A stretch of DNA of 64,000 nucleotides from assembly GCA_963930775.1 (NCBI GenBank), contig OZ005689.1:6239569-6303568 (forward strand), given 5' to 3'. Shown in pieces: positions 5,434-56,645 of the stretch; the first letter of the stretch is position 1, and every line of letters begins with the position of its first letter. Made by a program: the position numbers and the translations under genes. The notes beneath the pieces are model-generated. The model saw only the letters and a list, made by a program, of their open reading frames with translations. It was not told the DNA's origin and made no database searches. The DNA comes from Cliona cf. orientalis. Lineage: Eukaryota; Porifera; Demospongiae; Clionaida; Clionaidae.

Positions 5434-6212
5434 TCAAGGAGACCAGAACACTAAGCAGAAAAAAAAAATTGTCCGGAAACAGCCACATAGTCAAGCTGGA
5501 CACTTAGTAGAGCCATACAATGTAAGCAGACAGCTTATATTGCGATTTTGACCAAATTGGGTAAAGGTCGTCACATCTCTGAGCGCGCGTGGCCCCGCCC
5601 CTCACGTAGCGCGTGGGCGGAAAACATTGCAAATGCATGGCTTCCTATACAAACATATGGGGAAACTTCAAAGGGCCGTAACTTTAATTCTAGGGCGTGA
5701 ATCAAAATTTTCTCATGTCAAATCTCGTGTTTCGACCCATTCTGCGTGCCGGTATAAAAATTATCTCCCCAAGTGCTCCCAATTCCCCCAAACATTTTTC
5801 GCGCAGGAAATCTTTTTTTTTTTTTCTACTTAGTGTTTAATTAGTGTTTAATTTTCAAGGAGACCAGAACACTAAGCAGAAAAAAATTGTCCGAAAACCA
5901 CCACATAGTCGAGCTGGATGCATAGTAGAGCCATACAATGCAAGCAGGCAGCCTTTACATCAATTTTGACCAAAGTGGGTAATGGTCGTCACGTTGATGT
6001 GGCCCCGTCCCTCACGTAGCGCGTGGGCGGAAAACATTGCAAATGCATGGCTTCCTATACAAATATATGGGGTAACTTCAAATGGCCGTAACTTTAATTC
6101 TAAGGTGTGAATCAAAATTCCCCAGGGTCAAATCTCTAGTTTCGACCCATTCTGCGTGCACATGTAAAAATTATCTCCCCAAGTGCTCCCAAACCCCCCA
6201 AACATTAATTAA
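5434..6212. mobile_element. Two adjacent AACACTAAG-family MITEs (about 5434-5838 and 5857-6212)
   Basis: Both copies begin with AAGGAGACCAGAACACTAAG followed by CAGAAAAAA and share a ~350-bp core that includes TGACCAAA.TGGGTAA.GGTCGTCAC and CGACCCATTCTGCGTGC. The first ends with TTTTTCTACTTAGTGTTTAA, so the termini form an inverted repeat AACACTAAG(C/T)AGAAA. The second is cut off at 6212 by the TA-flanked element starting at 6216. No open frame of significance is carried. Confidence 0.75.
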
Positions 6213-6215
6213 TTA

Positions 6216-8102
6216 CCGTATCCTCCCGAAAATAAGCCCCCTTCGAAAATAAGCCCCCTCCCCTCTTTGACCGTCAGGTTCTTGCACAGGTATGTTTGCC
6301 TCGATTATAAGCCCCCTCCCATCAAGTAGAGTGCACACGTACACGCATACACACGTGCATGCGAGCGCAAACGTACGTACGTTCTAAGCCATTCCCCATA
6401 GAGAGAGGGATTAGACAGGGTTCAGTGTTGTCTCCTGTCCTTTTCAATCTGGTGATGGATCCACTGCTGAAGGAAATGAAGTCAAGAAAGCTCGGCCTTA
6501 GTGCTAACGGGCTCTACCTTGGTGCTTTTGCGCATGCTGATGATATCCGCACAGCATCAACCAATGCCACCGATGCTACAGATCAAGTAAAGACTGAAGA
6601 CCGGTTTGCAGAGAAGAATGGCCTCCAGCTCAGCCTGGAAAAGTGTGGCATTGTCATCACTGGGACAAGAGATTACCCAAGTATGAGCACCCTGGTGGGC
6701 CTCCCAGTTGAGAACTCCGTGAAATGTCTGGGGGTGTGGTGGAGTTCTAGCGGCTCTAGTCACAAGAGCATAGAGGAACGCATCAGCAAAGCTCGTGGGG
6801 CCTTCTTTGCTCATGGTCAGCTGGGCTCCTTCCATGGCCAACTGAATCCACTTTCATCTAGAAGCCTCATTGAATCCTGTGTAATGCCTGTCTTGATGTA
6901 TGGATCTGAGTTTTGGCACCTAAACACCACCTTGCTGTCTCGCCTGGAGTCTTTCCAAGCCGAGCTGGGGAAGAGAATCCTGCGATTGCCAAGAACTACT
7001 GCAAATAGCATCCCCTTGATAACTCTGGATTGGCCATCTATGAGATGCCGCTGTCTCTGTGCAAAGCTGTGCTTCTTGTTTCGAGCCTGCTCTGGAGATT
7101 CAAATACTGACACATTGAGGGAAGAGGTGTTCAAGTCTCTAAGCTACTCTGATGTAGAGGCACTAGACCTTGTCAAGCAATGCCGTCTCCTTGAGCTTCC
7201 CTATTCCACAAACTTCACCAGCGAAGTATTGTCAAACTCAGCTGGATCTCTTAAGGGTCTGAAAAAGCGAATTATCGAAGTAGATCGCTCCTACCAACTG
7301 AAACAGACTCTGAATCATCCATCTCAGAAACTAGTCACTCGAGTTGCTATGGCTGTTGGCTGGCTGAAAGTCTGGGACGAGGCACTGGACCGCGGTCCCA
7401 CAGGCATATTGGCCTCACTCTCCATTCTCAAGCTGCTATGTAAAACTGTGTTTGCCGACAGAAAATGTCCTGTGGAACTATGCAGTGAAACTATTCCATC
7501 TGACCACGCACTGAACAATCACTTTTTAACCCAGCACACCGACCTCAACGTGGGTATTGACTCTCTATTTGACACTATTTGTTCATGTTCCGAAGAACTT
7601 TTTACTATTGGTTTAAAATTAAGTAAATTTGTGTAATTTTCTATCATAGTATAAGTATATCTACACTGTATTGTGTATCCTGTTTGGGCAGTAAATATGA
7701 ACTTTGACTTTGACCCCGCCCTTCAATTGACTACGAGTACAAAGAGGAATTTTTTGTACAGCTATGGTGGTGGCGTTTAGAAAGCCTGTCTTGAAGTCAT
7801 TCTGTTATGATGGCACTTCTAGCTTGGCGAAGACACTTATGAGCCGATCAAGATGTTTTTGCTTTCCTCTGAAGACGTACACACATGGAACAACAAGTCC
7901 TTTCCCCACCGCCGATTGTCGTCTGTTGCCGTCTACTTGGCAGGTCATCTCGCTGCCGCTCTTAGCTACAACAGCTAGTAAACCACTGGCCATGCAAGGG
8001 GCTTATATTCGAGGGAAAGTGCATATTCGAAAATAAGCCCCCTCCCCAGTCTAGGTCATGTCTATTGCAAAAAAAGCGGGGGCTTATTTCGGGAGGATAC
8101 GG
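6216..8102. mobile_element. TA-flanked palindromic element (CCGTATCCTCCCG ends) containing a LINE fragment
   Basis: The left end CCGTATCCTCCCGAAAATAA and right end GGGGGCTTATTTCGGGAGGA followed by TACGG are inverted repeats. TA lies immediately outside both ends (6214-6215 and 8103-8104), so the apparent target duplication is TA. Without the LINE insertion (about 6383-7713) the element is close to the 553-bp copy at 9719-10271, which fixes the insertion boundaries. Confidence 0.85.
6383..7713 (+). mobile_element. 5'-truncated non-LTR retrotransposon (LINE) 3' part
   Basis: The open frame 6383-7636 encodes the C-terminal half of a LINE reverse transcriptase: IRQGSVLSPVLFN (palm), AFAHADDI with the catalytic Asp pair, then thumb and connection, and a terminal Cys/His motif (CPVELC with trailing H residues) typical of LINE C-termini. 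The N-terminal palm and any endonuclease are missing. The 3' end carries an ACTTTGACTTTGAC tail. The sequence interrupts the TA-flanked element 6216-8102 exactly where the sister copy at 9719-10271 is continuous. The first residues of the open frame upstream of 6383 come from the host element and are not LINE. It is a dead, 5'-truncated insertion, with no stop inside the remaining frame. Confidence 0.85.
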
Positions 8103-38000: not shown

Positions 38001-40897
38001 ACAAAAGAAGTGCGCGCAAAGCACGCTAAAAAAATTTCCGATTGACCACGCCCACTAATTATGTCACGTGACCATAGCTTATTGCTAGGCTCGTTATTAC
38101 AGTATACTAGTATAATAGTACTGCAGTTGACCATGCCCATCGTTTGACCTTTCGAACTCCTGTATCTTGGAGTGGTAGCTGCCTCGCTTAGCATCTATGT
38201 GTCTGAACGAGCTTAAAATAGTAAGTATAGAAACCTTATCCTTAGCGTTCTTTATCATTTTAGTTACAAATTTTATATAGTTTGTCATGCAGCTTCAGCT
38301 TGTCAGGCCAAGCTATTGTATATCCATAGACAGTGGGCCCACTCACTGAGCCCACTACGGGAAGACAAAGGGCCTGGGGCTCGAGCCCGCTGAGCCCTAT
38401 GCTAGCTACGCCCCTGCATAAGAAAATAATTAATGAAGGTTGATGTATTATTCGTTCCCTGCAGCTAACGACCCTGATATCAATATAGGAGTCCAGTAGT
38501 AACACGTCGCCAGGCCCCTAGGGACGAGGCTAGTAGTAACATTGACTAAATTTTTGCTACAATTGTATGGTGATTATTATCATGACCCTCAGATCACCGA
38601 CAATACAGTAGCTAATGTCACTTGGATGTTTATAAGGTCTTCACACTGACTCAGTAAGTGCTCCACTGATATCCAGTTATGATTCTAGAGTACAGCTACT
38701 TTGTGAGCCCTCAGGCTCATCAACAGTTACTGTGATAAATTGAATAATGATAGCAGATTTTGAGCCACTTTTGACCTTGAACATGGGCCACCTCTAAGCC
38801 ACTGAGTACTGATATTTAGTTTGTCACTGGACTTCCTTCACCAACTTAAAACTTCTACTGCCTGGTTTAGCATTCAGCATTTTGTACTCTGGCCCAGAGT
38901 CTGGGTGCCATACAGGAGTCTTCCTGTTGTTTGTAGTAACTACTCACCCATAGGAGGTGTTGCTAGCAGCCAACAGTGAACTAGACCTCTACGTCTCGTC
39001 ACTATAACCGGAAATGTGCTGCGTTTATTACACGAACCCATAGGTCTGAAATAGAAACGTACGTTTTTCTTATATACGTACGTTTATTACACAAATCCAT
39101 AGGTAGGTCTGAGAAGAGAAACGTACGTTTTTCTTGTGAACGTAAGGTCCAGGAAAAAGACGTACTTTTGTGGTTGGAACGTGAACTAGCGGATGAAAAC
39201 CTACGTTTATTGTTGGAAACTAAGATCCAAGGGTATAAACGTACATGTATACGTTTGGTCCAATAACGTATACGTTTATTGTGTGAAGGTCCAATATGTA
39301 GCTGTAATAATATTATTATTATAGATTGTGTTGTCTATCAAGTGCAGCCAAGAGAATAAAGGGTGTGGTTTCCGAGATCACATAGTACATTGAAGGAGTG
39401 ACTTCCGGTTCAGTTGCTGTACTGTACTAGTATCTCAAGAAATTGAAGGGTGTGACTTCCAAGCTAGAAGGGTGTGGCTATAATATAGGCTTGCAAGATT
39501 CCTGTACAGATATATACAAAGCTCCAAACGACTTAATGCATACTCAGTATATTTGTGATTGCAAGATCCATATTGCCATTCTAGTTCCTCGAGGAAACAC
39601 CCTAATAACTCGACTTGTTAATAATGCACACCTTGAACCTTGAACTATACTGGAGTCTTGCAAGCCTATATTATTATAGCCACATCCTTCTAGCTTGGAA
39701 GTCACACCCTTCAATCTCTTGAGATACTAGTACAGTACAGCAACTGAACCGGAAGTCACTCCTTCAATGTACTATGTGATCTCGGAAACCACACCCTTTA
39801 TTCTCTTGGCTGCACTTGATAGACAACACAATCTATAACAATATTACAGCTACATATTGGACCTTCACACAATAAACGTATACGTTATTGGACCAAACGT
39901 ATACATGTACGTTTATACCCTTGGACCTTAGTTTCCAACAATAAACGTAGGTTTTCATCCGCTAGTTCACGTTCCAATCACAAAAGTACGTCTTTTTCCT
40001 GGACCTTACGTTCACAAGAAAAACGTACGTTTCTCTTCTCAGACCTACCTATGGATTTGTGTAATAAACGTAAGTATATAAGAAAAACGTACGTTTCCAT
40101 TTCAGACCTATGGGTTCGTGTAATAAACGCAGCACATTTCCGGTTATTTACGCACCTTATTAGTGAGTGACGTAACGATTCTTTGGGACGTATTTTTGAA
40201 TCATACGGCTTGCCATAAGATCGCGCATGCGCAAAAGGTGCCATTAGCGCAACGAATGTTGACGACCATTTCCCAATTTCAGCTTTTCCGTTTTTGATTT
40301 CCGCTTCAGTTTTCCGTTTCCACTTGCCATACTTAGTTCAGATGGAAATACATGCGGGTGGAAATCAAGGGGGGATGAGAAACAACTATTTGATTTGGAG
40401 TGGCCTAAGTGCCAGTGTGTACATAATTTAGCACTTCACTGCTTCACTCTCGGAGACGGCTGAAAATGCTGACCTTGAAGTTGTTGATCATTTCCAGAGG
40501 GCATTTCCAAACTGGTCACGGTTCCACACCGTGGTACTAGGGTCAAGGTGGACTTGAGCTTCATGCACAGAAGATCCACGAGATCTCGACGCTTTCGTCG
40601 ATGGAAGGCTCGAGCTAGCTTCAAGAAAGTGGCTCCTCGTCCTTCTCTTTTATGCCAGGCGTCCAGTAGGGACACTCTGCACATTTCCTGGCTGCTATTT
40701 TCTTGACTTATGTCCCGTACCTCGTCCGAGGAAAACTCCAGATAACAACCAATCATCTCCCAGTCCGCGCCAAGTTCGACAGCGATATCATATCTGATAT
40801 CTCGTGGGCACTCTCTGTCTAGGTCTTTTTCTTTGAAGCTGTGTCGCGACAAAATCTCTTCCAAAGTAGGGCCGGTTTCGCTCGGAATTGCTGCCAT
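19131..40897 (-). CDS. Death domain - UBAN coiled coil - TKL/RIPK-like protein kinase, 4 exons
   Basis: Four exons join in phase on the minus strand: 40897-40474 (ends phase 1), 35267-34513, 24214-23507 and 20054-19131 (stop TGA). All introns start GT and end AG, and the total is 936 codons plus stop. Residues about 30-113 form a Death domain. Residues 142-393 are a sponge/cnidarian-type middle domain (FIDYELLQHL, DCWPGLEVPP, LSLGEKTLYQR). Residues about 394-665 are coiled coil opening with AETYKGDFENERKERK, like the UBAN/CC2-LZ ubiquitin-binding motif of NEMO and optineurin. Residues about 695-936 are a kinase. By family this would be a cytosolic innate-immune or cell-death signalling kinase, analogous to RIPKs; that role is inferred. 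The exon 1 to exon 2 junction (CAAG|GTCAGC donor) is the least certain, and an extra small exon in the 10.3-kb intron 2 cannot be excluded. Confidence 0.75.
20055..20872. other. Intron 3 of the kinase gene, right part
   Basis: No exon seen. Positions 20623-20697 are bounded by TAGTCTCG and GAGGCTA with a perfect central palindrome (TAGTAGTCTCAGACTACTA). They look like a small relative of the TAGTCTCG element family, but no 9-bp duplication is visible. Confidence 0.5.
20873..21557. mobile_element. TATGTGACC-family MITE, copy 1 (~685 bp)
   Basis: Inverted ends TATGTGACCGTCCACGAGAA and TTCTCGTGGACGGTCACATA. The body (GCCACCATTACCAACTACAA ... CTACACGGCCGACTTCTTCG) recurs at 21884-22900 and 33004-33688 in opposite orientation. 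No transposase. Confidence 0.85.
21884..22900. mobile_element. TATGTGACC-family MITE, copy 2, containing a TAGTCTCG element
   Basis: Reverse orientation to copy 1, with ends TATGTGACCCTCCATGAC and TCATGGAAGGTCACATA. The 322-bp element at 22089-22410 is inserted at TAGCTAACA; copies 1 and 3 are continuous across that site and provide the empty-site control. Confidence 0.85.
22089..22410. mobile_element. Non-autonomous TAGTCTCG element (AcademH-like MITE), 322 bp, 9-bp TSD
   Basis: Ends TAGTCTCGTCCCCAGACC and GGTCTGGGGACGAGACTA. Inverted similarity extends ~60 bp inward to CGAGCGCTTTTTGGG. The flanks are TAGCTAACA (22080-22088) and TTGCTAACA (22411-22419), a 9-bp duplication with one mismatch. 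The terminal repeats match the type seen on the RecQ/DUF6589 transposon at 41421-49411. Confidence 0.85.
22901..23506. other. Intron 3 of the kinase gene, left part
   Basis: AT-rich, no exon or clear repeat end identified. A consensus donor GTGAGG at 23506 begins the intron on the minus strand. Confidence 0.6.
23507..24214 (-). CDS. Exon 3 of the Death-domain kinase gene: UBAN-type coiled coil
   Basis: Acceptor TTTCTTTAG|GCTGAAAC at 24214 and donor AAAAG|GTGAGG at 23507, both phase 0; 708 bp. The first residues, AETYKGDFENERKERKVQ, match the core pattern of the UBAN motif of NEMO/optineurin/ABIN, which binds linear ubiquitin. The rest is a long heptad-rich coiled coil (KQQIEGLKIEVELKE, QLQQLHSEKTELQQQ, YEQQLEYYQEQVRQI). 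The ATG at 24130 is internal; sequence from the acceptor to that ATG is open and conserved-looking. Confidence 0.85.
24215..25524. other. Intron 2 of the kinase gene, right part, with a dispersed repeat
   Basis: No exon seen. Positions about 25018-25380 (ACTAGAGCTCT..GAGCAC to TACATCACCCCTTGTGCAT) belong to a dispersed family also present at 30236-30855, with a shorter relative near 34200-34330. Confidence 0.5.
25525..26640. repeat. Dispersed ~1-kb repeat, copy 2, with a nested MITE
   Basis: Same sequence as 3278-3945 (CATAGAGTCGGTAGACTC start). An AACACTAAG-family MITE (about 25757-26133) has inserted in the TTTCTCATTCTTTCTTT tract; TTTCTTTCTTTCTCATTT follows the MITE, consistent with duplication of the target tract. 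Confidence 0.8.
25757..26133. mobile_element. AACACTAAG-family MITE, 377 bp, nested
   Basis: AAGGCGACCAGAACACTAAG at the left and TTTTTTTTCTACTTAGTGTT at the right. The empty site is preserved at 3278-3945, so the limits are well defined. Confidence 0.8.
26641..27399. repeat. Intron 2: inverted repeat pair 26826-26935 / 27077-27200
   Basis: AAACAAGATTTTTAGGGATA in the left arm is the reverse complement of TATCCCTAAAAATCTTGTTT in the right arm, and the match extends ~110 bp around a ~140-bp spacer. The two open frames with shared protein sequence on opposite strands arise from this symmetry and are not genes. Confidence 0.75.
27400..29345. repeat. Intron 2: CATGAAA-rich degenerate repeat blocks (27400-27835 and 28975-29345)
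   Basis: Short motifs such as ATTTCATGGGATT, CATGAAAAT and TTTCATAGG recur in both orientations at irregular spacing. Between the blocks, 28218-28345 contains an inverted repeat (CAGTTATGAAAC with GTTTCATAACTG). No coding signal. Confidence 0.6.
29678..30148. mobile_element. TA-flanked element (CCGTATTTCCTCG ends) with a pogo/Tigger-type HTH remnant, 471 bp
   Basis: Ends CCGTATTTCCTCGAATAAAC and TTTAATCAAGGAAATACGG, TA on both sides (29676-29677, 30149-30150), interior full of AACGCCGGGCC modules. On the plus strand about 29905-30050, one frame reads SYDLSFKLKAIESAEKTSKE followed by AAARRFG, a stop and THRRTHEWCGQK. This is the pattern of the N-terminal DNA-binding domain of pogo/Tigger-like (Tc1/mariner) transposases, broken by a frameshift after MAQQRKK and by the stop. 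Confidence 0.8.
30149..31012. other. Intron 2: dispersed repeat (about 30236-30855), no exon
   Basis: Shares ACTAGAGCTCTATAGAGCAC, GACGACCTTTA.CT and ACTTTACCCCTTGCACATGC with the repeat at 25018-25380. No exon seen. Confidence 0.55.
31013..31544. mobile_element. TA-flanked palindromic MITE (CCGTACCCTC ends), 532 bp
   Basis: Ends CCGTACCCTCACGAAAGAGG and CCTCTTTGGCGAGGGTACGG with GGCCCA just inside each; TA at 31011-31012 and 31545-31546. No transposase. Confidence 0.85.
31545..32194. other. Intron 2: no exon seen
   Basis: AT-rich. The 31920-32065 stretch has AAACTTTGGTGAG and CTCACCAAAG in inverted orientation around GGTGAATTCGGCAGACATC, so it may be another small MITE. I did not find matching flanks. 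Confidence 0.4.
32195..32972. mobile_element. Non-autonomous TAGTCT element (AcademH-like), 778 bp, 9-bp TSD
   Basis: Ends TAGTCTATCGAGCTAGACCC and GGGTCTAGCTCGATAGACTA with ~75-bp inverted repeats running to AGGTCACGTTT. Flanks CCATGCGCG (32186-32194) and TCATGCGCG (32973-32981) are a 9-bp duplication with one mismatch. Inside is a direct duplication of ~185 bp (about 32309-32488 and 32491-32676). Confidence 0.85.
33004..33688. mobile_element. TATGTGACC-family MITE, copy 3 (~685 bp)
   Basis: Same orientation as copy 2, uninterrupted. Ends TATGTGACCCTCCACGAGG and CTCGTGGGGGGTCACATA. Confidence 0.85.
33689..34512. other. Intron 2 of the kinase gene, left part
   Basis: No exon seen. A GCACGCACGCACGCACACGC simple repeat lies at about 34315-34342. 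The consensus donor GTAAGTAT at 34512 (minus strand) opens the intron. Confidence 0.6.
34513..35267 (-). CDS. Exon 2 of the Death-domain kinase gene: middle domain
   Basis: Acceptor CCATGCAG|TGTCCCCC at 35267 (phase 1) and donor ACTCAT|GTAAGTAT at 34513 (phase 0). The encoded ~250 residues (TRLPFTFKTEYESK, LFYRLNPLFTFIDYELLQHL, SKFGSQELKQEM, DPKSYTLEKLDSFRNRFYGK, LSLGEKTLYQR) match a domain I recognise from many sponge and cnidarian signalling proteins; I do not know a formal function. No start codon lies within the exon, so it must be joined upstream; the phase fits exon 1 exactly. Confidence 0.85.
35268..35689. other. Intron 1 of the kinase gene, right part
   Basis: No exon. The 35590-35680 block (CACTTCCAAACTACTTTTTGG ... 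GGGGGGAGGGGG) is a diverged relative of 36290-36365. Confidence 0.5.
35690..36075. mobile_element. TA-flanked palindromic MITE (CCGTAGAAACTGGTTG ends), 386 bp
   Basis: Ends CCGTAGAAACTGGTTG and CAACCAGTTTCTACGG, TA outside both (35688-35689, 36076-36077), TTAAGCGCATAC modules inside. Related to the AAGCGCA elements at 18046 and 60500. Confidence 0.9.
36285..37660. repeat. Inverted repeat pair around a TAGCCTCG element
   Basis: GTCCAAAGTCCTTGTGGAAA at about 36300 is the reverse complement of TTTCCACAAGGACTTTGGAC at about 37627. Similarity covers ~60-70 bp, including the G-rich tract. The 561-bp element 36543-37103 and a G-rich tract (37564-37598) lie between the arms. Confidence 0.65.
36543..37103. 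mobile_element. Non-autonomous TAGCCTCG element (AcademH-like), 561 bp, 9-bp TSD
   Basis: Ends TAGCCTCGTCCCCAGGCGCC and GGCGCCTGGGGACGAGGCTA, with inverted similarity running ~150 bp to GGCACAACAGC. The flanks TACATAGCT (36534-36542 and 37104-37112) are a perfect 9-bp duplication. Interior arms contain TCGAGTTTTTCGATCTGA-like palindromic sequence. No ORF. Confidence 0.9.
37960..38416. mobile_element. CAGGGGCG-ended MITE, 457 bp, 5-bp TSD CATAA
   Basis: Ends CAGGGGCGTAGCCAGG and GCTAGCTACGCCCCTG, with CATAA at 37955-37959 and 38417-38421. Same family as 45650-46003 and 57401-57755 (shared GACCACGCCC and GCGCGCAAAGCACGC-type motif). Confidence 0.85.
38417..39004. other. Intron 1 of the kinase gene: no exon identified
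   Basis: A solo TAGTAGTAACA/GACGAGGCTA-like end is at about 38505-38535. No ORF or domain seen. Confidence 0.45.
39005..40146. repeat. Large palindrome (foldback), 1,142 bp with ~490-bp arms
   Basis: The left arm from TAACCGGAAATGTGCTGCGT is matched by the right arm ending in ACGCAGCACATTTCCGGTTA. Inverted identity continues almost without gap to CTATAATATAGGCTTGCAAG (left, about 39478) and its inverted partner CTTGCAAGCCTATATTATTATAG (right, about 39656), around a ~165-bp spacer. Each arm carries several ACGTACGTTT and AATAAACGTA motifs. It lies in intron 1 of the kinase gene and would fold into a long hairpin in a transcript or in single-stranded DNA. Confidence 0.9.
40474..40897 (-). CDS. 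Exon 1 of the Death-domain kinase gene: Death domain
   Basis: ATG at 40897 opens a frame with WEMIGCYLEFSSDEVRDI, SLLDAWHKREGRGATFLKLA and RRKRRDLVDLLCMKL, a clear six-helix Death domain pattern (residues about 30-113). The frame would stop at 40436 if unspliced. A CTTCAAG|GTCAGC donor at 40474 leaves phase 1, which matches the phase-1 acceptor of exon 2. If that donor is not used, a free-standing 153-residue Death-domain protein is the alternative. The 9-bp duplication of the large nested insertion lies only 18-26 bp upstream of the ATG. Confidence 0.8.
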
Positions 40898-41649
40898 GTT
40901 TTGGGGGATAGTACAGTACTAGCGTAGCATGCGTAGCCTCCTACGAACCCAGGCTCACTTTCGTGGGGGCCGGGGGAGGGGAAAGAGAGCCTGGTACACA
41001 CTGTCTGCGCATGCGCAAAGTTTACGGAGCAATTTTTAGTACCGTATAGCGGGAAACTTTCGAGGGAGAAAACTTTCACGAATTTCGCGATTTTTCAGCC
41101 ATCCGCGAAAGTTTTCTCCACGAAATTCTAGGCATGCCACACCCGTTAGCGATTTTTTATCTGACGTACACTTTTCGAACTTAACCGCTCACTAGACCGT
41201 TTTGCGCACGCCGCTAATGTGAAATGAATGGGAGTGGCCTCTTTCGATCATGTGACTGACCACTGTAAGTATGTTTATTGTTGATATCGCGTGTCAATTG
41301 TTCAAAGAAGTATAGGTAAGATTTACGCTATACTATTGTACTGAGCATGATACGATCGATAGTTTTAACTATTAGATTCACTGAAGAGAACGCTGGTTGC
41401 ATCTGCGTCATTGAAACATGTAGTCTCGTGTACCAGACCACTCCCACCTCCCCAGCTCTGGATGTATTGCATCACCAGCGCGGGGAGAGGGAGGGTCTGG
41501 CCACTGTTGCACGGTTTCCGTGGCACAGGTCGGAATGTGGATATGACCAATGAGATTTCAGTAGTCACATGCAGGATTAATTATCGAATTCCTCAAATAC
41601 CATAACGTGCGCGCGCGCCTAGCGCGTGCGATTAGTCAATCGAGTGAGC

Positions 41650-44041
41650 ATGATGGAGTGGACAAGCGACAACATCGAAGCTGCTATGACAGCGTCAGTT
41701 GAAGCTCTGGGGTACGATAAACTCACGAGAAACCAGAATAAGGTGTTGCGGAGCTTTCTTTCAGGATCAGATGTGTTTGCGAGTTTGCCGACTGGAAGCG
41801 GGAAATCGTTGTGCTACTGGGTTCTACCGGGTGCTTTCGATATATTAAGGTACCATTTAATTGCGTGGGCGTGAGCGTCAGGAATGGCTAATTCAATTAG
41901 CGAATCGTGAAGGGGCGTGGCCGAAGAGGCCATACGAGTGCTTTTGGTCGAAGGTGGGCGTGTCCAGAATCGGCCAGGGATGATTATGCGCGTGTAATTA
42001 GCGACCGGAAGTGGCCCCTGAAGAAAAGGCCGGTAATTGCCCACATCAAAGCAAGATCAAAGCATTCTTGCTTAACTATTAACCGCAACGACAAAAAAAA
42101 AAAAAAAAAAAAAAAAGCCTTATTCGGCCTAATTAAGCATGTGGGCGTGTTCCTGGCACTGTGTGGAGTGTGTGCGTGTGCGTTAATGCAGGTTTTATTG
42201 CTTCCGATTGGGCGTGGCTTCACGGGCCAGTGCTTGGATATCGGCGCCTGGGACTTGGCCTCGGCGATAGGTGGGCGTGTCCCGGAAGCGGTGGTGACCT
42301 TTGAACCCCGCGAGGAGGCTTTGGGGGCGTGGCAGGAGGTCAAAGGTGAGGCCATGTCAGTTAATGAGGCACTGTACGCCGGTGCGATCGAGGGGCCTGT
42401 ACGGCTGGACGGAAGCTGACGATGGTTTGAAGCGGATGTGGTTGCGATGACGTGTTGTTACTCCGCCCACACAGGAAATGAGGTGAGCTCTTGCGTGGGC
42501 GGTGTGGCAGAACAGCCTCCAAGTGTTTGTGTGTGTGTGTGTTTTGGCCTTGAGGAAGCTGTGTGTTTTAATTGGGATTGATTGTGGGCTTCCGGTGGAC
42601 ATCCGGTGGTTAGTAGGCACTTGATTGAGAATGGTGGTCCTTGGGGAACAGGGTGGGGCTGTTTTGGGCGTGGCCTGGCCCCTCCCTTCCGGCTCGGCTT
42701 CCGGTCCATGGAGGATATTAAATGAACACTTCCGGCTCTAGCAGCCACACCCCTGAGACCTGTGCAATTAAAAGGGCGTGGTTACACAACATGCACCTCA
42801 CTAATGACTTTGATGTGGTTTAGGTGTCATATCCCCCACCTCACGCCCACGCAATTTAATGGTACCTTAAGGAAGACAAATACCTCTATTGTCCTGGTTA
42901 TCAGCCCATTGATAGCTCTAATGAAGGATCAGGTGGAGCGCTTGAAAGTTAAACGGATGAAGGCTGTATACGGAGGCGATCAGTGTGAAATGGATCGAGT
43001 ATATGAAGGGCATTACCAGATGATATTTCTAAGTCCAGAATCGCTGCTGACCACCAACAAGTGGAGAGATATCTTACTTTCTGACGTGTATCAACGAAAT
43101 CTTATAGCAGTAGTGATTGATGAAGCACACTGTGTGAAGAAATGGTGAGTGGCAAATTTTGTGTTAATTTTCAGAACATGCATAATTTAATTTTATTCTG
43201 TGCTGATACATGTAGGGGTGAAAGTTTTCGAAGAGCATTTTCCAGGCTCTCTGAAGTTCGTAGCATCATTCCAAATAGCGTGAAACTGATGGCCCTCACT
43301 GCAACTGCTACCACAAACACAAGAAGGAGTGTGTGTCGAATATTAGGTATGGTTCAGCCTAGCATTGTGGCCTTGTCACCAAACCGTGTGAACATACACT
43401 ACTCGGTTCACAAGAAAGAAGCAACTATAGAAAAGACTTTCTCTGAGTTGGTGAATGAGCTGCGTGAAAAAAGGTTGCAAACTCCCCGTACTGTTATATT
43501 CTGTCGTAGTTATGAGGATGTCGGCTACATATACTCCTTCATCACTCGTTCCCTAGGGGCCAAGTGTGTGGAACCTATCGGAGCTCCTAACATTGCTTGC
43601 TTTCGTTTGGTTGACATGTTTACTGCATGTACAGAACAGAAAGTGAAAGATGTAATCATCTGCAACTTCACACAGAAAGAGGCTCGTCTAAGAGTGGTCA
43701 TTGCTACTGTGGCATTCGGCATGGGACTTGATAGCCCTAATATAAGAAGGATTATTCATTGGGGAGCTCCTGCTGACATCGAAGGCTACATACAAGAAAC
43801 TGGTAGGGCAGGGAGAGACGGTGAGCAATCTCTAGCAAAACTTTATTATGCACCTGTAAACCTCCACCCTTGGTACACTGAAGAGAGTATGAGGCTGTAC
43901 TGTCTAAATAATGAGACTTGCCGACGACAGGTACTACTACAAGACTTTGATGTAGATGATGAGGTAGTGTCCCCCTCTTCTTTGTGTAGGTGTTGTGATG
44001 TTTGTGATAAGACTTGTAATTGTGATGTGTGTGCAATATGA
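41650..44041 (+). CDS. RecQ-like DNA helicase of the transposon, coding exon split by a TTAA element
   Basis: Exons 41650-41849, 42872-43144 and 43216-44041 join in frame to 432 codons plus stop. Motifs in order: ASLPTGSGKSLCYW (Walker A), SPLIALMKDQVERL (Ia), VIDEAHCV (DEAH box), ALTATAT (III), TVIFCRSYEDVG (IV), IATVAFGMGLDSPNIRRIIH and QETGRAGRDG (V/VI), then a Cys-rich Zn-binding tail (CRCCDVCDKTCNCDVC). It unwinds DNA 3'-5' by family; WH and HRDC domains are absent, so this is a minimal RecQ. Intron 2 is conventional (ATG|GTGAGT to TGTAG|G). The first interruption is a 1,018-bp transposon whose junctions form GT and AG and whose removal restores the frame. Whether it is spliced decides if the gene is alive. 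ATG at 41653 is an alternative start. Confidence 0.85.
41849..42866. mobile_element. TTAA-flanked DNA transposon, 1,018 bp, forming a GT-AG intron in the RecQ gene
   Basis: Inverted ends GGTACCATTTAATTGCGTGG and CCACGCAATTTAATGGTACC, flanked by TTAA at 41845-41848 and 42867-42870. The host reads ATATTAAG|GTACC at the left and GGTACCTTAAG|GAAG at the right, so positions 41850-42871 are bounded by GT and AG. Excision or splicing leaves the same restored codon (AGG). A 25-base A tract (about 42093-42118) lies inside. Related partial copies are at 3948-4192 and 60349-61530. Its 170-codon and other frames are not recognisable proteins. Confidence 0.9.
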
Positions 44042-44904
44042 AGAAATTTAATTTGTAAGTAATAGTTATATCACGGGCGCGAGGGATGTATGGCATTTAT
44101 TGCACCGAAGCACGAGGGCGCGAAGCGGCCCGAGGGCTGAGTGCAATAAATGCCATACATCCCGAGTGCACGTGATATAACTATTTTATATCCCGTGGGC
44201 ATTAGCTACCATGGACACTGAAAAGAAGAAGAAAGAACAACTCATCTTGGTCGTATCAGACTACTAAGCCGCTCTCTGAGTCAGTTCTCGAACGTCGATC
44301 GTTCCTTAGAGCGCCTCGTGACTGAGGGGTGTGGTCAAATCGACACTAAACTCGATCGCGTGACAAGCACCATCGAGTTCAGAATCTGATATTCGTCGCT
44401 CAAGCTGTTGCCTAGCACAGAAGCGAATACCTATTGCCATGCCAAAGCTTTTACGTGATAAGCTTACCTTGGTATGTCTCTAGCTCTCTCAGTCTGTGTA
44501 GACTTGCGATCGACCGACCGATCGACGATACGACTCCGCCCATCGCTTCGACGCTTTGTGCTTTCTCCTGCCATTCTTCCCGCTACACGCTCCATTGATA
44601 TAGCTTTACAGAGCCCCACAGAATCGCTGAAGAAGCGGCTAGTTCTTTGATCCTCGGCAATACTTTTTGCCTGAAGCGCGTTTGACAGTGCAATATGAGT
44701 TTGCGGTTAGTGCAATATCGTTGCGGTTAGTGCAATATGAGTTTGCGGTTAGTGCAATATTGCATATATTTTACTTAGCAACAACATAGTAACGGGATAT
44801 AATTTATAATTATTAATCACACTCAATCAATTATTAATAATTGATCTTGATTAAAATTAAATGATTGACAGCATGTACATTTTTAGTGTTCAGTGAAGAG
44901 ATAA
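44042..44904. repeat. Intergenic part of the transposon: palindrome and short repeats
   Basis: GGGATGTATGGCATTTATTG and CAATAAATGCCATACATCCC (about 44087-44162) form a hairpin just after the RecQ stop. From about 44186 to 44800 a possible MITE runs from TATATCCCGT to ACGGGATATA. A ~23-bp unit (GTTTGCGGTTAGTGCAATAT) repeats three times at 44696-44762. No gene. Confidence 0.6.
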
Positions 44905-45649
44905 TTACTGATACATAATCAACTTTTTTATTTGTCCATCCATCCACTCTTTTAATTCTCTCTTGTTGATGGCCTTGCAAGGATTGCTTGCAAAGTTTTT
45001 GAAATGCAAATGACAACGACCATCTTGGAACTTAAAAACTTTCGACTTTCTTAGCTGATCTACCATCATTGTTACATCTTTGTGCTTAGGTTTTTTTGTG
45101 TGGTAGTCCGATGGTGTGGGTACATTGTTGTCCACATCAAACCGACGGCTCAGGTTTGACATGCCACCAACAGTCTTGCCAATTCTCTCAACTGATTTCT
45201 CAGTGATGTTGGAACTTAACCCTCCAAGAGCATTTTTGGCAACTCGATTCAGATGTTCCAAATGGAGGTCGCATGAGATATTCTTACCAGTACGTCCATG
45301 TGTGTTGATTGTCCTGCTCCATGCTAGCTGTACTGCCATTCTAGGCGAAAAAAGGTAGTGATATTGAGCCAGGAGAGTTACCGCTTCGATGGAGTAGTTG
45401 GTACGTTTTGTTGACTTAAACAATGGAAGTAAAAATTTCCAGCATCTGATAATTCTATCACCATCACCTTCCCTGATAGAGTCATTAAACTCCATCAATA
45501 GCAGGCCGAGAACTAGTGTGTCCTTAGCATAGTCGTGAACACCATCATGCAGTTGTTTAGGTGTACCCTTCTTACTTTTCTCCACATATTCTGGTATTTT
45601 CAGATCTACATATTTTTCAATCAGCTGCTCTGTAGCAAGGAGTAGGATG

Positions 45650-46003
45650 CAGTGGCGTATCCAGGATTTGAAGGAGGGAGGTGCTAGGTTGATCGCGCGC
45701 GAAGCGCGCGCGCAAAATTTTTAGCCACACCCCCAAAACATTGACCACGCCCCTCATTTACGCGTTCTTGAAGATAGCTGGCTGACAAAGAAGGCTATTT
45801 TAGGCGTAGTGACGATGAGAAAACGCTGTTTAAGGAGCGAATTTTAGAGGCCAGTAAGTTTATTGTTGGTAGGAGCTGCCAGTTATCGATTATCATTGAC
45901 AATATTTGTGCTGAGGTACCGCTGAGGTAGGCTGAGCTGGCTGTTGTGCCAGAGCTGAGGGGGGTGCTCCAGCACCCTGAGCTCCATGCTAGATACGCCA
46001 CTG
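45650..46003. mobile_element. CAGTGGCG-ended MITE in the DUF6589 gene, 354 bp, 5-bp TSD GGATG
   Basis: Ends CAGTGGCGTATCCAGG and GCTAGATACGCCACTG, GGATG at 45645-45649 and 46004-46008. Contains GCGCGCGAAGCGCGCGC. Insertion is between RRDI and the following residues of exon 6; the frame is restored on its removal. Confidence 0.9.
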
Positions 46004-48029
46004 GGATGTCTCGTCGCTGAAGAGAATCTAGCTCATTAGATCCTTCAGGAAAGTACGTAGTTGAAGGGGTATCCGTCAGAGAATCCATATCAAACAACTC
46101 CATGGCAGCTGAAAGAATGTGGGCTTCCGTAACCGTGACCATGAAATCTTCACAGGCAGCTGCATTTTCTTTAGGCTTGCTGACTACGTTACGTCTGTTC
46201 ACTAAGGTACGCAACTGATACATCGTGCCACCATCCATCACAGATGCTCCAGTGTACAATCGCCGCCAAATGACCTATGATAATTATGAATATTAATTGA
46301 GATATTCCAATAAAGCAGAAAATAGACACACAGTTCTGATCAAGGAAAGCACCTGCACACACTCAGGGGGATTACATCATTGTTGCCCAATACCCTTGAG
46401 AGATTCACCACTCATTAATTAAACATACTACTATTTTTTTGCATACCCCAAGGAGACAGAGTTTAGCATGCCAGTCTTCACACACTGGTTTTAGTCCCTC
46501 CAGCCTGTCTTTGCCACGCTCCGAGTTCGTTCGGATTCTTTGGCTGCCACGTGCCCGAGCGGCAGTCATCTGATCCCCACCAAACAAGACTGTATGGAGT
46601 GTGTCTTCAACAATCTCTACTTCTTCATCACTATCCGGAACAGTGTGCTTGGTGATTGACGTTTTAGTTGGAATATACTGGTGGAGATTATTCATGATAT
46701 CTACCATGTCCTCATAGTTGCTCTCACTTTTTTGCAAAATTCCAAGTGGCACCTACATTGATTCAGAAGTGTACACAATAATTAATGATAATTATGCATA
46801 CTTTCGAGATAGATTATAGCAATTTGTGGGGTCTGTAGTCAGGCCATGCATAAATTTCTAAGAGAATGTGACGTTGTTGTATAAATGGAATTAGGGATAG
46901 TAGCTGAGCCAATAGACTTTAAAATTCTTAACTGAGAAATACTAAAGATTAACTTCGGATTTTTGACCCATTTCCTCATAAAAATTGTGTCGAATGTGTT
47001 TTTCAAGACCAGCACCAAACTTCTCAAAAAAGGCATATACTGCTTAAGAACTCTCGCTACCAGGAAAGAAAAATTTTTGGTTAATTCATTGTGGTCAGAT
47101 TCGGATGGTAGCAATCGAGTTGAGTCCATCTTTGATTCATCTATCACAGGAGGTGTGTCATCATAAGAGGTGAGGTCAATCCTGTCTCTCACTGCATACG
47201 TCTGGAAATAGTGTAGCGACTTAGTCTGACTATCAACTCGGACATCAGATGGCTTGACATTTTTGTCGACGTTGTCACCAACCAGCTTGAAGGTCTTCAA
47301 TGAGAAGGAAGTCGGTGCGTACGAAGTTTCTGGACCAAAGATAGCTTGAATCTCTCTCTCGAAGGATGAACAAGAAGAAGAAGAGCTAGTGTTGGAAGAA
47401 TCACTGCTACTAGATGGTTCACTACTGCAGCTGCCATTTTCATCCTCAGAAGTTGACTGAGAAGAGGAGGAGGGTTCATTCTCATCTGAACTACTCTGCT
47501 GGCCAGGAGGCACACTTGGTTGGGTCACTATCAAAGCTTGTTCACTGCTCCCTTCAACTCCAGATTCCTCGTTCACCTGAAGATACATATGATACATATG
47601 ACATGTGACACTGATAATAATATACTGTGTCACCAGTGCAAATCATATTTCTCAAGTGAAAATGAATAATTATTTCTTATCACATAGGATCATAATAGAG
47701 ATAAACACTATTGTCAATGGTGATTTAATTACCACATACCTGTGCATCAAACTTTCTCAGACAGATATCATCTCTCCACTTCAACACTTCCTTATCATGG
47801 TTCTGCCCCATCTTGTCAACAAAGGCAAGAGTGCTCTTATGAGACAGACATAGTAGTAGCCTATTCAATCTTCTGTACAACTAAAATCATAATTTTTATG
47901 ACATACTGTATGATAACTATTGCCAGCAAACCTGCTTTGGTGCATGACTCGTATAAAGCAACATCGAAATCATCCGTTGAACAAGATTCATCCGCAGACT
48001 TCTGGCACGTAATAACACAGCAAAGCCTT

Positions 48030-48493
48030 GAACTCCTCCAAGGCACTGACAGAAACATCACGAAAGTGGGAATTGACTTTCTTTGAAGATAGACGAGCCA
48101 ATTCTTTTGATAGCAACTTCCCCATATGTTCTACAATCTTCTTCCTGATCCTGGAATCTTTCATCACATGGCGGGCAATAGATGCAATGGCTGTATCTTC
48201 ACTGGGCAGACGACGAGCACTCCTTCCTCCTTTTCCTTTAGGTTGATGGCCACGTCGTTTGACATGAACACACTCCCTCAGAAAAGAAAGCATGACTGGT
48301 GCCTCCGTACCTATCTCTTGAAGCAAGCTTTCCCAGGTGAACTCCTCCAAGGCACTGACAGAAACATCACGAAAGTGGGAATTGACTTTCTTTGAAGATA
48401 GACGAGCCAATTCTTTTGATAGCAACTTCCCCATATGTTCTACAATCTTCTTCCTGATCCTGGAATCTTTCATCACATGGCGGGCAATAGATG
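48030..48493 (-). repeat. 155-bp direct duplication within DUF6589 exon 2 (offset 309 bp)
   Basis: 48030-48184 and 48339-48493 appear identical by eye and encode RHVMKDSRIRKKIVEHMGKL and the following residues twice. The 3' copy on the minus strand interrupts the junction between EDTAIAS and AVLLRARSLRMN expected for the family, so it is the added one. Confidence 0.85.
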
Positions 48494-49411
48494 ACCTGTT
48501 TCTTCGGCCAACACTCCTGGCTAGTGGCTTCAGTGAATGGGTGAGATGAAACACTCGAGCTCGACTTTGTTTCTTCACAAGAACCTATTGCATAAACAGC
48601 AATGCTATGAAATTTACTAAGCAATCATAAGATGAAGAACAATCACTTACTGAAACAGATGGTGTCTCCGGTGCATGTACTTGGCGAATTATTCTACGTG
48701 TTGGAGTGTCAGGTGCATGACGCTTCTTTGGAGGTCCTGCTGGTGAGGATGACAGCAACCTTGAACGTTTTCGATTCGATCTAGAGGGAGTAGGAGGTTC
48801 ATCTTGCTGAGTATTTGCTCTCAATTCAACAAACTGCTTCAGTTTCAGAAATCCACCCTTCAGTGTCTCTTGTACCTGAGATTTGTCTTTTTCCAATCTT
48901 ATAAGCTTCTCTAGGTGTCTGAAACACTTCATACAAATGAATATATCTTCCTTGGATTGAGCGGACTGAAGAGGCGGTAGCAGTTGGTCAACATCTTCAG
49001 ATAAGTACTCCTCTCTCAGTAAGCCAGATAAAATGGGAAGAACGTGCCGCGTAGACTCACTATACAGCTTTCGACGGTGTGCTATACCTCGTTTCAGTTC
49101 ACAAGCGCACCCAGCGCATCTTTCCTCCATATCAACAAACGAAGAAACGAGTCCAATCGCTCGACGATCCGACGCGCTTGCGCGCTCCTACGATCAGGCT
49201 AGCGCTCGCGCTTGCGCGTAGTCTTGTCCTGTCCCCAGACCCCACCCTCAAGAAATTCCGTGCGGTTGAATGGTCATGTGACAGCATAATTATTGACATT
49301 CCGCTGTGCCACGGAAACCGTGCAACAGTGGCCAGACCCTCCCTCTCCCCGCGCTGGTGATGCAATACATCCAGAGCTGGGGAGGTGGGAGTGGTCTGGT
49401 ACACGAGACTA

Positions 49412-50643
49412 TGAAACATGGTGGAGTAACCTGAAAATAGCCAGGTAAATAATGTACTAAAGCTGACAACAGTTTTCACAAATTTATGTTATATATGAGT
49501 AAATGCATGTTAGGTATACGCACAGTGCTCAGCAGAATTCCGTGGATGATTTGATCATTGAGTACTTGACTTATAAAACATAGATGATAAAAGAAAATTT
49601 GATAAAGTTTGAGCATCATTACAGTAAACTTTTGTAGCTACATGTACACTGTAACAAAGCCTTGCACTGCTGACAGTATATATGAAGGGGTCAGTGGAAA
49701 AAGGGGATAAGTCATGTTTTTGATAAAATGGAGTTTTGCATGCTGCTACTAAGGTCAACTCATCTACTATTCGCACGCAATGTTTTAGGCACGCACACGC
49801 AATCTTTTTGGGTGATCCGCAATAATTATTTGAACGCAAACTTTTCAAATCGCGTAATTTTTACCCGCAATGCGTTTATGCAAGTGACGACCATTTCCAA
49901 ATATTCGAAAACGGATTGAAAATCCCATTACTTACAACACTAGAATACTGTGTGTGCAATGCTCTGTATCTAAAACAGTTTTTAAAAAGTTTTATTGCTC
50001 CAAAACAGAGATACAGGCAACAATGTATGTCCATACTTAAATGCCTGTTTTCTCAAAAGTACTAAAATATGACTTATCCCCTTTTTCCACTGACCCCTTC
50101 ATATGTAAATGGGTATATAAATGGCTGTTTGATCCAGAGTTGTGATTCAAATTGTAGCCTATGGTCGATACGGATGATCGAACGCACACCAATCCACCCT
50201 GACCCTGAGCCACCACTTCCACAATGATGGCAGTGAGGGCAATAGCTTTTGAACAGCCAATAATTATTTATGAGAGATACATGTAGATAAATCCTCGAGA
50301 TGGTGGTAATGGTCCAACGATGTCGGAGTGGATAATTTAAGTAAAAGTGAGCATCTGGGGTCAACACGGGTGACGAACGTCAAAATTGATATCAGATCAA
50401 GCATATCATAAGGTGACAGGTTTCTGAGTGGTATGTTTCCTGGGGTGGGAAAGTCTGTGTATACGTAAGAGCAAATCTGTGCACGAGTGGCTTAGATGAA
50501 ATGGGAGACTACACCCCTAAAACATACGCTGCCCATGCAACGATTAAAGTGTGCTAGACGTACATGTATTATGTACGAACGAACATAATCTGAGTAGCAG
50601 AACACCAAGTGTTGATTATTTAACTACACATCCAGGAAGTAAA
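49412..50643. other. 3' side of the Ulp1-MULE element with a GAAGGGGTCAGTGG MITE
   Basis: No gene. 49681-50104 is a MITE with ends ATGAAGGGGTCAGTGGAAAA and TTTTCCACTGACCCCTTCAT; inverted similarity covers GGGGATAAGTCAT. Target duplication is unclear because flanks are AT-rich. Confidence 0.65.
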
Positions 50644-52092
50644 TTAGTGGCCCTTGCCATGTTTATGATGGTTTGTTTGATTCAGTTGTTCATTTAATCG
50701 TAAATTTTGTTTTCTTTTTATGTGGTCAGGTCGGCCTCTCTTCGTTTGGACGTTAATGTCACAGTCAGTGAGTGGACGTTTGGGGGGTCTGCCGCTGGGT
50801 GCCATCTTACTCCCCTTTGTGATTCCTTCTCGTCTTCTCGATATGGCTGTGGGCTGGACGTGCATACGTCTTGTACCAGCTACTTGAGTTGCTGATGAAG
50901 ACGGCTGAGAGAAGTAAGTATGTAGTAGTGAAGAAAGTTTTGGAGTAGCTGAAACTGCTGGTTCTGTATTTTTTACGGTATCCATGTAAACTGTAAAGAA
51001 TTTTTTTAGTCCTGTGAGGTATTGAATGTCCATTTGCCCCATTCTATCCTGAACGTCTTCAATAAAAGCATTTCCTAGTGTTAATACGTCTTGTTTTAGC
51101 TTGTCTTGTTCGTCCATAGCGTTAAGTATCAGGTCAAGATTTTGTTCCCCCTCATCATAGATTGTATTATTGGTGGTTTGATCTCCCATTGTATCACAGT
51201 CCATTGTATTATTACTTGTGTTGTCTACCATCTCAACCGAGTCAGTGGGATTGCATGTTGATGCTGTTTCTTTCATATCAGCGTAAAAACTCTTATCTCC
51301 AACTCTAAGTGGTCCTACGGCAATTAAAGCATGCAAATAACGTCCATCAGCATTGAAATAAGGAAGTAGGTTGGGGGCTGTTATATTAAGTTTATTTGCT
51401 ACTGCATGTTGATGTTTGCACGGTTCACCACTAGGATATCCTGTCCTACCAACTGTACAAGTGCATGTCCATTTTTGAGTGTCAACTTCATACTCCTTAT
51501 CTGCATAACAAGTACTCTTTACAAGATACACATGACCAGCTGTTGTAGATTGGCGTATGCTTTCCTGGTTTATCTTTGTTACTCCTAAACCTTTGTATCT
51601 TAATGATATATACCTATCCATTCTGTTATGTGCCACTGCTAGCAGACGGCGTTCATAATACAGTTCAAATGTTACTGTTAAGAAATCAAATAGCTGAACG
51701 AGGTTATACGCCTTGACTCGATTGAAAACTATATCTTTTAGAATTCTAATCCCTGACTCAGCGTAGTTGTTTGTGTTTATCCCTCTCATAGTTTCACCAT
51801 TTCTAAAGCATATTGCCCAGTCATTTCTACGTTTCCAGTATCCCTCCATATGTGCCATGAAATTTGGATATTGTTTTGCTACTGTATTACTTTTGAATTG
51901 GTGATATTCTGTATTTAGTTCGGTTTCTTTTTTGGCGTAAACCAACTTCCTTACTAAGTTCATCAAGTATTGCCGTTCATCTTTATGTATGTTATTCTTA
52001 CTGCACAAAAGCCATCGCCACATGCTCTGTAGAAAGTGAAATGTGCACATGAAGATATTAGAGCTTGGCCAAGTTTGATGTAAACCTTCACG
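50644..52092 (-). pseudogene. Main exon, C-terminal part: second half of MULE core and SWIM finger
   Basis: Open from just after the TAA to 50644. Carries REGLHQTW, MCTFHFLQSMWRWLL, TNNYAESGIRILKD with the putative catalytic Glu, and the SWIM motif. The C-terminal tail is basic and proline-rich (PSGRPPKRPL, KRGRPDHIKRK), suggesting nuclear localisation. Confidence 0.8.
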
Positions 52093-56281: not shown

Positions 56282-56645
56282 CTCGGAAATTAGTCTCGTG
56301 CCCAGACCCCACCCCCAAAAAGAGGGAAAGGGGGTGGGGTCTGGGCACGAGACTACTCGGAAATTATCTAGCTAGCTAGCAAGTCGGCTGGTGCGCATGC
56401 GCAATTAAAAATCCACGTGACATTAGGGACTCTCCCTTGCAATTGACCTAGTCAATACAGAAACTTAAATTTAGTCTCGTGCCCAGACCCCACCCCCAAA
56501 AAGAGGGAAAGGGGGTGGGGTCTGGGCACGAGACTACTCGGAAATTATGTAGCTAGCTAGCAAGTCGGCTGGTGCGCATGCGCAATTAAAAATCCACGTG
56601 ACATTAGGGACTCTCCCTTGCAATTGACCTAGTCAGTACAGAAAC
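56282..56645. repeat. Tandem duplication of a 181-bp unit that contains a 65-bp palindromic element
   Basis: Units start at 56291 and 56472 and are nearly identical (shared GTCGGCTGGTGCGCATGCGC and CCACGTGACATTAGGGACTC). Each contains one copy of the 65-bp TAGTCTCG hairpin. Confidence 0.9.
56291..56355. mobile_element. 65-bp TAGTCTCG micro-element, 9-bp TSD CTCGGAAAT
   Basis: A perfect 26-bp inverted repeat (TAGTCTCGTGCCCAGACCCC plus ACCCCC) around a 13-base loop. CTCGGAAAT flanks both sides (56282-56290 and 56356-56364). The second copy (56472-56536) arose by the tandem duplication and keeps only the right-hand 9-mer. Confidence 0.85.

Follow-up and report, generated by a model that had tools for sequence, protein, structure and literature searches.

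An element with two convergent genes

The window, a stretch of 64,000 nucleotides from contig OZ005689.1 of the sponge Cliona cf. orientalis, contains a 7,991-bp element (positions 41421–49411) in which two genes face each other. The + strand gene encodes a helicase with Pfam DEAD and Helicase_C domains, and the − strand gene matches DUF6589 (PF20231; E values of 9.4e-22 and 9.9e-11; 77.7 and 41.4 bits against a cut-off of 27), as an earlier interpretation made from the letters alone (hereafter the sequence-only reading) had proposed for this convergent pair. Two inverted arms of 108 nt each, 100% complementary and with the end sequence TAGTCTCGTG, close the element on either side, and the 9-bp target-site sequence TGAAACATG flanks both (Table 1). 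The sequence-only reading had described inverted repeats of about 110 bp, a perfect 9-bp duplication and sharp boundaries, and all three hold, with the arms placed at exactly its coordinates.

The boundaries can be read against sites that lack the element. We joined the two flanks, kept TGAAACATG once and searched the genome with this query, which returned eight rows: two are the window's own flanks, and five cross the junction uninterrupted. In letter-by-letter alignments, the best of these empty sites (L067, C18:5298360–5298505, 99% identity) has one TGAAACATG and no gap, and a second (C1:29294181–29294322, 97%) is missing three bases beside the insertion point; a third (C1:36793816–36793958, 95%) also crosses the junction uninterrupted. 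Because these uninterrupted sites match the joined flanks, the boundaries of the window element are exact, and its inverted ends and TGAAACATG duplication are not a chance arrangement.

The same ends recur elsewhere. They match at least 40 genomic places (40 of 410 candidates were scored) and bound two further coding copies, L009 (6,547 bp) and L010 (4,395 bp). We fetched 20 of the places (L009–L028) and found both ends in 14, the other six being dropped with one end unclear; 11 of these elements measure only 378–487 bp and one 848 bp. A survey of target-site duplications covered these 14, the window copy, a 65-bp element of the window described below, and L061, an element of another family. 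Allowing at most one mismatch, 14 of the 17 are flanked by a duplication, of 9 bp in eight elements and of 10 bp in six. L061 itself has 61-nt inverted ends that agree at 98% (sequence TAGTCTGGCG), a 10-bp duplication and an empty site at C1:1204391–1204561 (99% identity). It is embedded in a small inverted-repeat sequence (L061 positions 1–85 and 6145–6230), and this surrounding sequence occurs at no fewer than 40 places at ≥90% identity (40 of 295 candidates scored), so that an empty site was easily found.

The RecQ helicase and DUF6589 genes

The + strand gene encodes a RecQ-family helicase with a RecQ-type core. In all four C-terminal helicase exons compared, the top NCBIfam hit is TIGR00614 (E values of 5.2e-39 to 1.5e-46), single exons scoring below the whole-protein cut-off of this model. 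The RecQ zinc-binding domain PF16124 lies above cut-off in two of three relatives (L059 and L062) and below it in the window copy (E = 0.52). In L009 the frame of the first helicase part continues unbroken, and an open reading frame (ORF) there (6392–6919) matches PF00270 and TIGR01389. The protein shares the helicase core and its DEAH box with WRN, BLM and bacterial RecQ but is short, with a predicted length of about 450 residues over its exons. RecQ helicases can have RQC, HRDC and exonuclease domains besides the core; none of these is among the Pfam matches of the transposon helicases scanned.

The DUF6589 gene is predicted to run over about six exons. Its first exon encodes a CxxC...CxxC region whose cysteines are also present in L009, L059 and L061; neither this exon, at the cut-off, nor the GDNVD-bearing part (46945–47576) by itself matches a Pfam family. 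All 22 C-terminal exons scanned match PF20231 at E ≤ 1 (best 1.4e-40), and DUF6589 is the sole Pfam family matched by every one of these 22 members. In alignments built separately for each exon, the candidate first aspartate (D119, in GDN) is conserved at ≥90% over 20 rows (A4); the candidate second aspartate (D60, in GGDQ) is invariant together with G59 over 20 rows (A5); and D242, E246, H247 and N249 of a DLhxEHxN motif are invariant over 22 rows (A3). The D, D and E residues that the sequence-only reading had called plausible are thus invariant or almost so, and as candidates they fit the conserved triad of DDE transposases with an RNase H fold. Our choice of the glutamate is a proposal, since other conserved acidic residues are present.

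We saw no link of DUF6589 to viruses or prokaryotes in three sets. Scans with the C-terminal alignment, which depend on short peptide patterns, gave 26 pattern matches in IMG/VR contigs and four in GTDB genome contigs, none of them confirmed by tblastn, and DUF6589 was not matched in 14 control genomes. The term 'DUF6589' is absent from the literature that we searched, and 'PF20231' occurs only in an unrelated paper; subscription papers fall mostly outside this coverage, so the absence is no proof of novelty.

Pairing and co-divergence across the genome

Searches of the genome for DUF6589 returned 122 rows by profile and 150 by protein with the C-terminal part as query. From the latter we compared 141 places, 98 best and 43 weaker. 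A convergent RecQ match lies within 3 kb at 94 of the 98 best places, with a median gap of 248 bp, and at two of the 43 weaker ones. One weaker place, L060, has a diverged helicase with a DEAD match; used as the query, this helicase revealed a convergent helicase within 4 kb at 33 of the weaker places, distinct from the previous two. Taken together, 129 of 141 DUF6589 places have a helicase within 3–4 kb, and all pairs found are convergent. By simple arithmetic, the 110 helicase rows, each extended by 3 kb in both directions, cover about 0.3% of the 217-Mb genome.

The weaker places form a second clade, clade B, of the same architecture. In its C18 copy, 97 of the first 97 nt of the two ends are identical, starting TAGCCTCGTC, and the 9-bp duplication reads ATAGCAACA. 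The C1 element (C1:6148885–6155157, comprising L077 and L060) carries 148 bp of its right end twice, and its 9-bp duplication, GCTACATGC, lies beyond the outer of the two repeats, suggesting that the additional end formed prior to insertion or in the course of it. A 9- or 10-bp duplication is thus present in both clade-B copies read. The sequence-only reading had named two findings that would speak against a transposon, the lack of any other copy with the same ends and a gene pair at syntenic single-copy loci in related species; other bounded copies, two of them coding and many short, exist, and the pair in this genome is not single-copy.

The two proteins have also diverged together. The comparison drew on the 30 best DUF6589 places and a few fetched by place; L010, L050, L060 and L063, with too little of both proteins, and the repeats L029, L038 and L059 were left out of the distance matrices. 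The DUF6589 and helicase distances correlate at r = 0.92 over 30 well-covered rows (L009 and L030 being the same place) and at r = 0.81 over 20 non-redundant loci, and none of 10,000 permutations reached either value. Among 15 pairs compared by codon, seven lie between families, where synonymous divergence (dS) is saturated and non-synonymous divergence (dN) is 0.19–0.47 in both genes. Both proteins have been maintained by selection across the divergence of families, even though single copies decay. Some families have recently moved or duplicated, because 3,642 bp are shared at 99.97% identity by L037 and L059, which lie on different contigs.

These results bear on whether the two genes belong to the machinery of the element at all. 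They could be passengers or host genes, with another protein moving the element, and the frames are indeed damaged in all three coding copies examined in the window's family, so that its short copies were either mobilised in trans or already in place when the damage arose. We consider this very improbable: the pair recurs at 129 of the 141 places, it lies inside elements with ends and duplications in all three families or clades read (the window copy with L009 and L010; L061; the C18 and C1 copies of clade B), both genes are constrained between families, and the ORFs of ≥90 amino acids in L059–L061 include no obvious third gene.

Relation to known transposon groups

Academ elements carry terminal inverted repeats, as do the window element (108 nt), L061 (61 nt) and the C18 copy of clade B (97 nt). 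Within the group, the passages available to us tie 9- or 10-bp duplications to a helicase in AcademH and 3- or 4-bp duplications to a nuclease in AcademX (PMC10045372), and describe the AcademH helicase as having DEAD and Helicase_C domains (PMC10799480); by the title of its report, the AcademH lineage occurs in animals and fungi (Kojima 2020, Mob DNA 11:15). The elements described here are likewise DNA transposons, with a helicase bearing both domains and 9–10-bp duplications in 14 of the 17 surveyed elements and in both clade-B copies. Nothing is shown to differ, and the passages name neither DUF6589 nor RecQ for AcademH. The AcademH-type helicase transposon put forward by the sequence-only reading is well supported by the length of the duplications, the helicase, the inverted ends, the existence of several copies and the empty sites, and AcademH is a fitting name; DUF6589 is a putative homologue of the published AcademH transposases.

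If this assignment is right, AcademX belongs to the same superfamily and differs in its nuclease and its 3–4-bp duplication (PMC10045372), where the elements here have a helicase and 9–10 bp. XPG_I matches lie at four places in the genome, none of them near a DUF6589 place when compared by eye, and XPG, presumably the AcademX nuclease, was accordingly rejected as a partner.

Another helicase-bearing superfamily could be the source of the element. KolobokH transposons also carry a RecQ helicase alongside their DDD/E transposase, and one red-algal Kolobok has its RecQ helicase on the complementary strand, according to PMC9587614. The same source states that Kolobok duplicates TTAA, that KolobokH has its helicase downstream of the transposase and that it occurs in fungi only. 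Here the duplications are 9–10 bp long and of varied sequence in the families whose ends were read, and DUF6589 is the one Pfam family common to all 22 members; we therefore rejected KolobokH membership and regard an origin in any such superfamily as the most improbable of the alternatives.

The window holds one further sequence of this kind. An element of 65 bp (56291–56355) is barely more than two inverted ends (TAGTCTCGTGCCC...) and has a 10-bp duplication, CTCGGAAATT; a second copy (56472–56536) follows 181 bp further on, within tandemly repeated sequence. By appearance this is an AcademH-type miniature inverted-repeat transposable element (MITE) of extremely small size.

Proposed mechanism

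We read the element as an AcademH-type DNA transposon in which DUF6589 is most likely the DDE transposase and the RecQ helicase its constant partner, with a probability of roughly 0.82. The roles of transposase and accessory factor were already suggested in the sequence-only reading, and pairing, co-divergence and the conserved D, D and E candidates make this the best account of the two genes. The DUF6589 protein would bind the long inverted ends, perhaps through its N-terminal CxxC...CxxC region, cut at the 5′-TAG ends and transfer the strands into a target with a 9–10-bp stagger, which would give the duplications. The helicase would most likely unwind DNA at the transposon ends, in the strand-transfer product or at the donor gap, allowing the event to be completed by repair or replication. 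We infer the DDE cut and staggered transfer from the ends, the duplications and the conserved acidic residues, and the helicase step from the almost constant presence and conservation of the gene; the RNase H fold, the catalytic role, the helicase step and the cut-and-paste mode are all predictions from sequence.

Several observations weigh against this account. First, 12 of the 141 DUF6589 places yielded no helicase in the 3-kb RecQ and 4-kb clade-B searches, and the two proteins have matching nearest neighbours at only 14 of the 20 loci. Second, omega (dN/dS), where defined, is 0.19–0.79 in the younger pairs, and because it reaches 0.79 there, constraint on single copies is weak. Third, no clear duplication was found in three of the 17 two-ended elements (L017, L018 and L024); L017 and L018 have common flanks and appear to be copies of one duplicated stretch, and L024 has two mismatches across the 9 bp of its candidate duplication. 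Fourth, inverted ends with a duplication were not found in L059 and L060 as fetched; those of L060 were later located outside the fetched stretch, and those of L059 were not found. Finally, a search of solved structures by sequence with A3 gave none resembling DUF6589, the one match being a chance one (E = 0.94).

The same element might instead move by copying, through a helicase-driven replicative or copy-out route. DDE transposons mostly do without a helicase encoded by the element itself, which would favour this route, as would the near-identical copies L037 and L059; on either route, template switching would fit the repeated 148-bp right end of the clade-B C1 copy. Repeated ends and short copies are, however, just as well accounted for by abortive gap repair following cut-and-paste, and no excision or copying intermediates are visible in the sequence data, so that copying seems to us unlikely, though far less so than the alternatives weighed above. 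Only slightly less doubtful, and offered as a tentative extension, is a two-component machine in which DUF6589 is the transposase and RecQ an obligate subunit of the transposition cycle, maintained by selection across families whose synonymous divergence is saturated; such a machine may move by helicase-driven copying.

Coding damage, nested inserts and neighbouring genes

The AcademH-type element of the window is complete only at its ends. In comparison with its sister L009, the helicase gene is interrupted by a 1,018-bp insert and the DUF6589 gene by several lesions (Table 1). The 1,018-bp insert has RR...YY termini, which agree with Kolobok and not with piggyBac (PMC9587614). TTAA is duplicated in all six copies of this insert that we read, the window's included, and 33 of the 40 scored out of 1,607 candidates are near full-length at 97–100% identity, some arranged head to tail. 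Because the insert meets the helicase gene at AAG/GT...AAG/G junctions, splicing may be able to remove it exactly, a property that we would provisionally liken to that of an introner. Between the two genes, roughly 725 additional bp are probably also a nested insert, with approximate ends.

In the DUF6589 gene, a 156-nt block is doubled (48029–48184 and 48338–48493) and the frame is lost afterwards, one exon end lacks bases, and the frame shifts near 47030, where a T-run has six letters in the window copy, eight in L009 and seven in L010; an assembly error could also account for these length differences. The sisters fare no better: L009 has a stop within its helicase and extra sequence separating two DUF6589 exons, and L010 is without its middle part. 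None of the three coding copies thus appears intact, and the window copy is a coding-defective, dead or trans-mobilised member of its family. The sequence-only reading had taken it for a complete element and a good type specimen; with its nested inserts, and because all three coding copies look damaged, it is a poor one.

Two neighbouring ORFs were also noted. One on the − strand (40436–40897) matches the Death domain family PF00531 (E = 5.8e-11), a sign of an animal host; another (50644–52050, − strand, 468 amino acids) has a weak SWIM zinc-finger match below the cut-off (E = 0.085) and is transposase-like by impression.

Table 1. Parts of the AcademH-type element, its flanks and nested inserts, in window coordinates
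Feature	Position	Strand	Details
Left target-site duplication	41412–41420		TGAAACATG; single TGAAACATG in empty site L067
Left terminal inverted repeat	41421–41528	+	108 nt, starts TAGTCTCGTGTACC
RecQ helicase, first coding part (Walker A region)	41650–41855	+	Predicted limits
Nested non-autonomous element, 1,018 bp, in helicase gene	41849–42866		TTAA at 41845–41848 and 42867–42870; ends GGTACC...GGTACC; L009 without it
RecQ helicase, second coding part (DEAH box)	42871–43143	+	PF00270 in ORF 42762–43148; predicted splice limit
RecQ helicase, C-terminal part	43214–44041	+	TIGR00614, E 1.3e-44; best solved match WRN
Extra sequence between genes, ~725 bp	44075–44799		45-nt inverted repeat; not in L009
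DUF6589, last coding part	44905–46274	-	Candidate E codon 45256–45258; PF20231, E 9.4e-22; predicted limits and codon place
Nested MITE, 354 bp, in DUF6589 gene	45650–46003		Ends CAGTGGCG...CGCCACTG; 5-bp direct repeat GGATG on both sides
DUF6589, part with GGDQ	46446–46752	-	Candidate second D codon 46573–46575; PF20231, E 9.9e-11; predicted limits
DUF6589, part with GDNVD	46945–47576	-	Candidate first D codon 47274–47276; predicted limits
DUF6589, short predicted exon	47740–47880	-	Splice-like limits
DUF6589, upstream coding part	47930–48584	-	156-nt block twice; predicted limits
DUF6589, first exon	48651–49130	-	ORF; CxxC...CxxC region (putative zinc finger)
Right terminal inverted repeat	49304–49411	-	108 nt
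Right target-site duplication	49412–49420		TGAAACATG

Implications

A helicase-bearing transposon type was already known; what these elements add is a likely function for DUF6589, a family filed as being of unknown function. Where an annotation lists DUF6589, a transposon origin of the gene should be the first suspicion. The near-constant pairing raises the question of why a RecQ helicase of its own seems indispensable to one transposon lineage, and whether that helicase sets the 9–10-bp duplication or a copying route is open to test.

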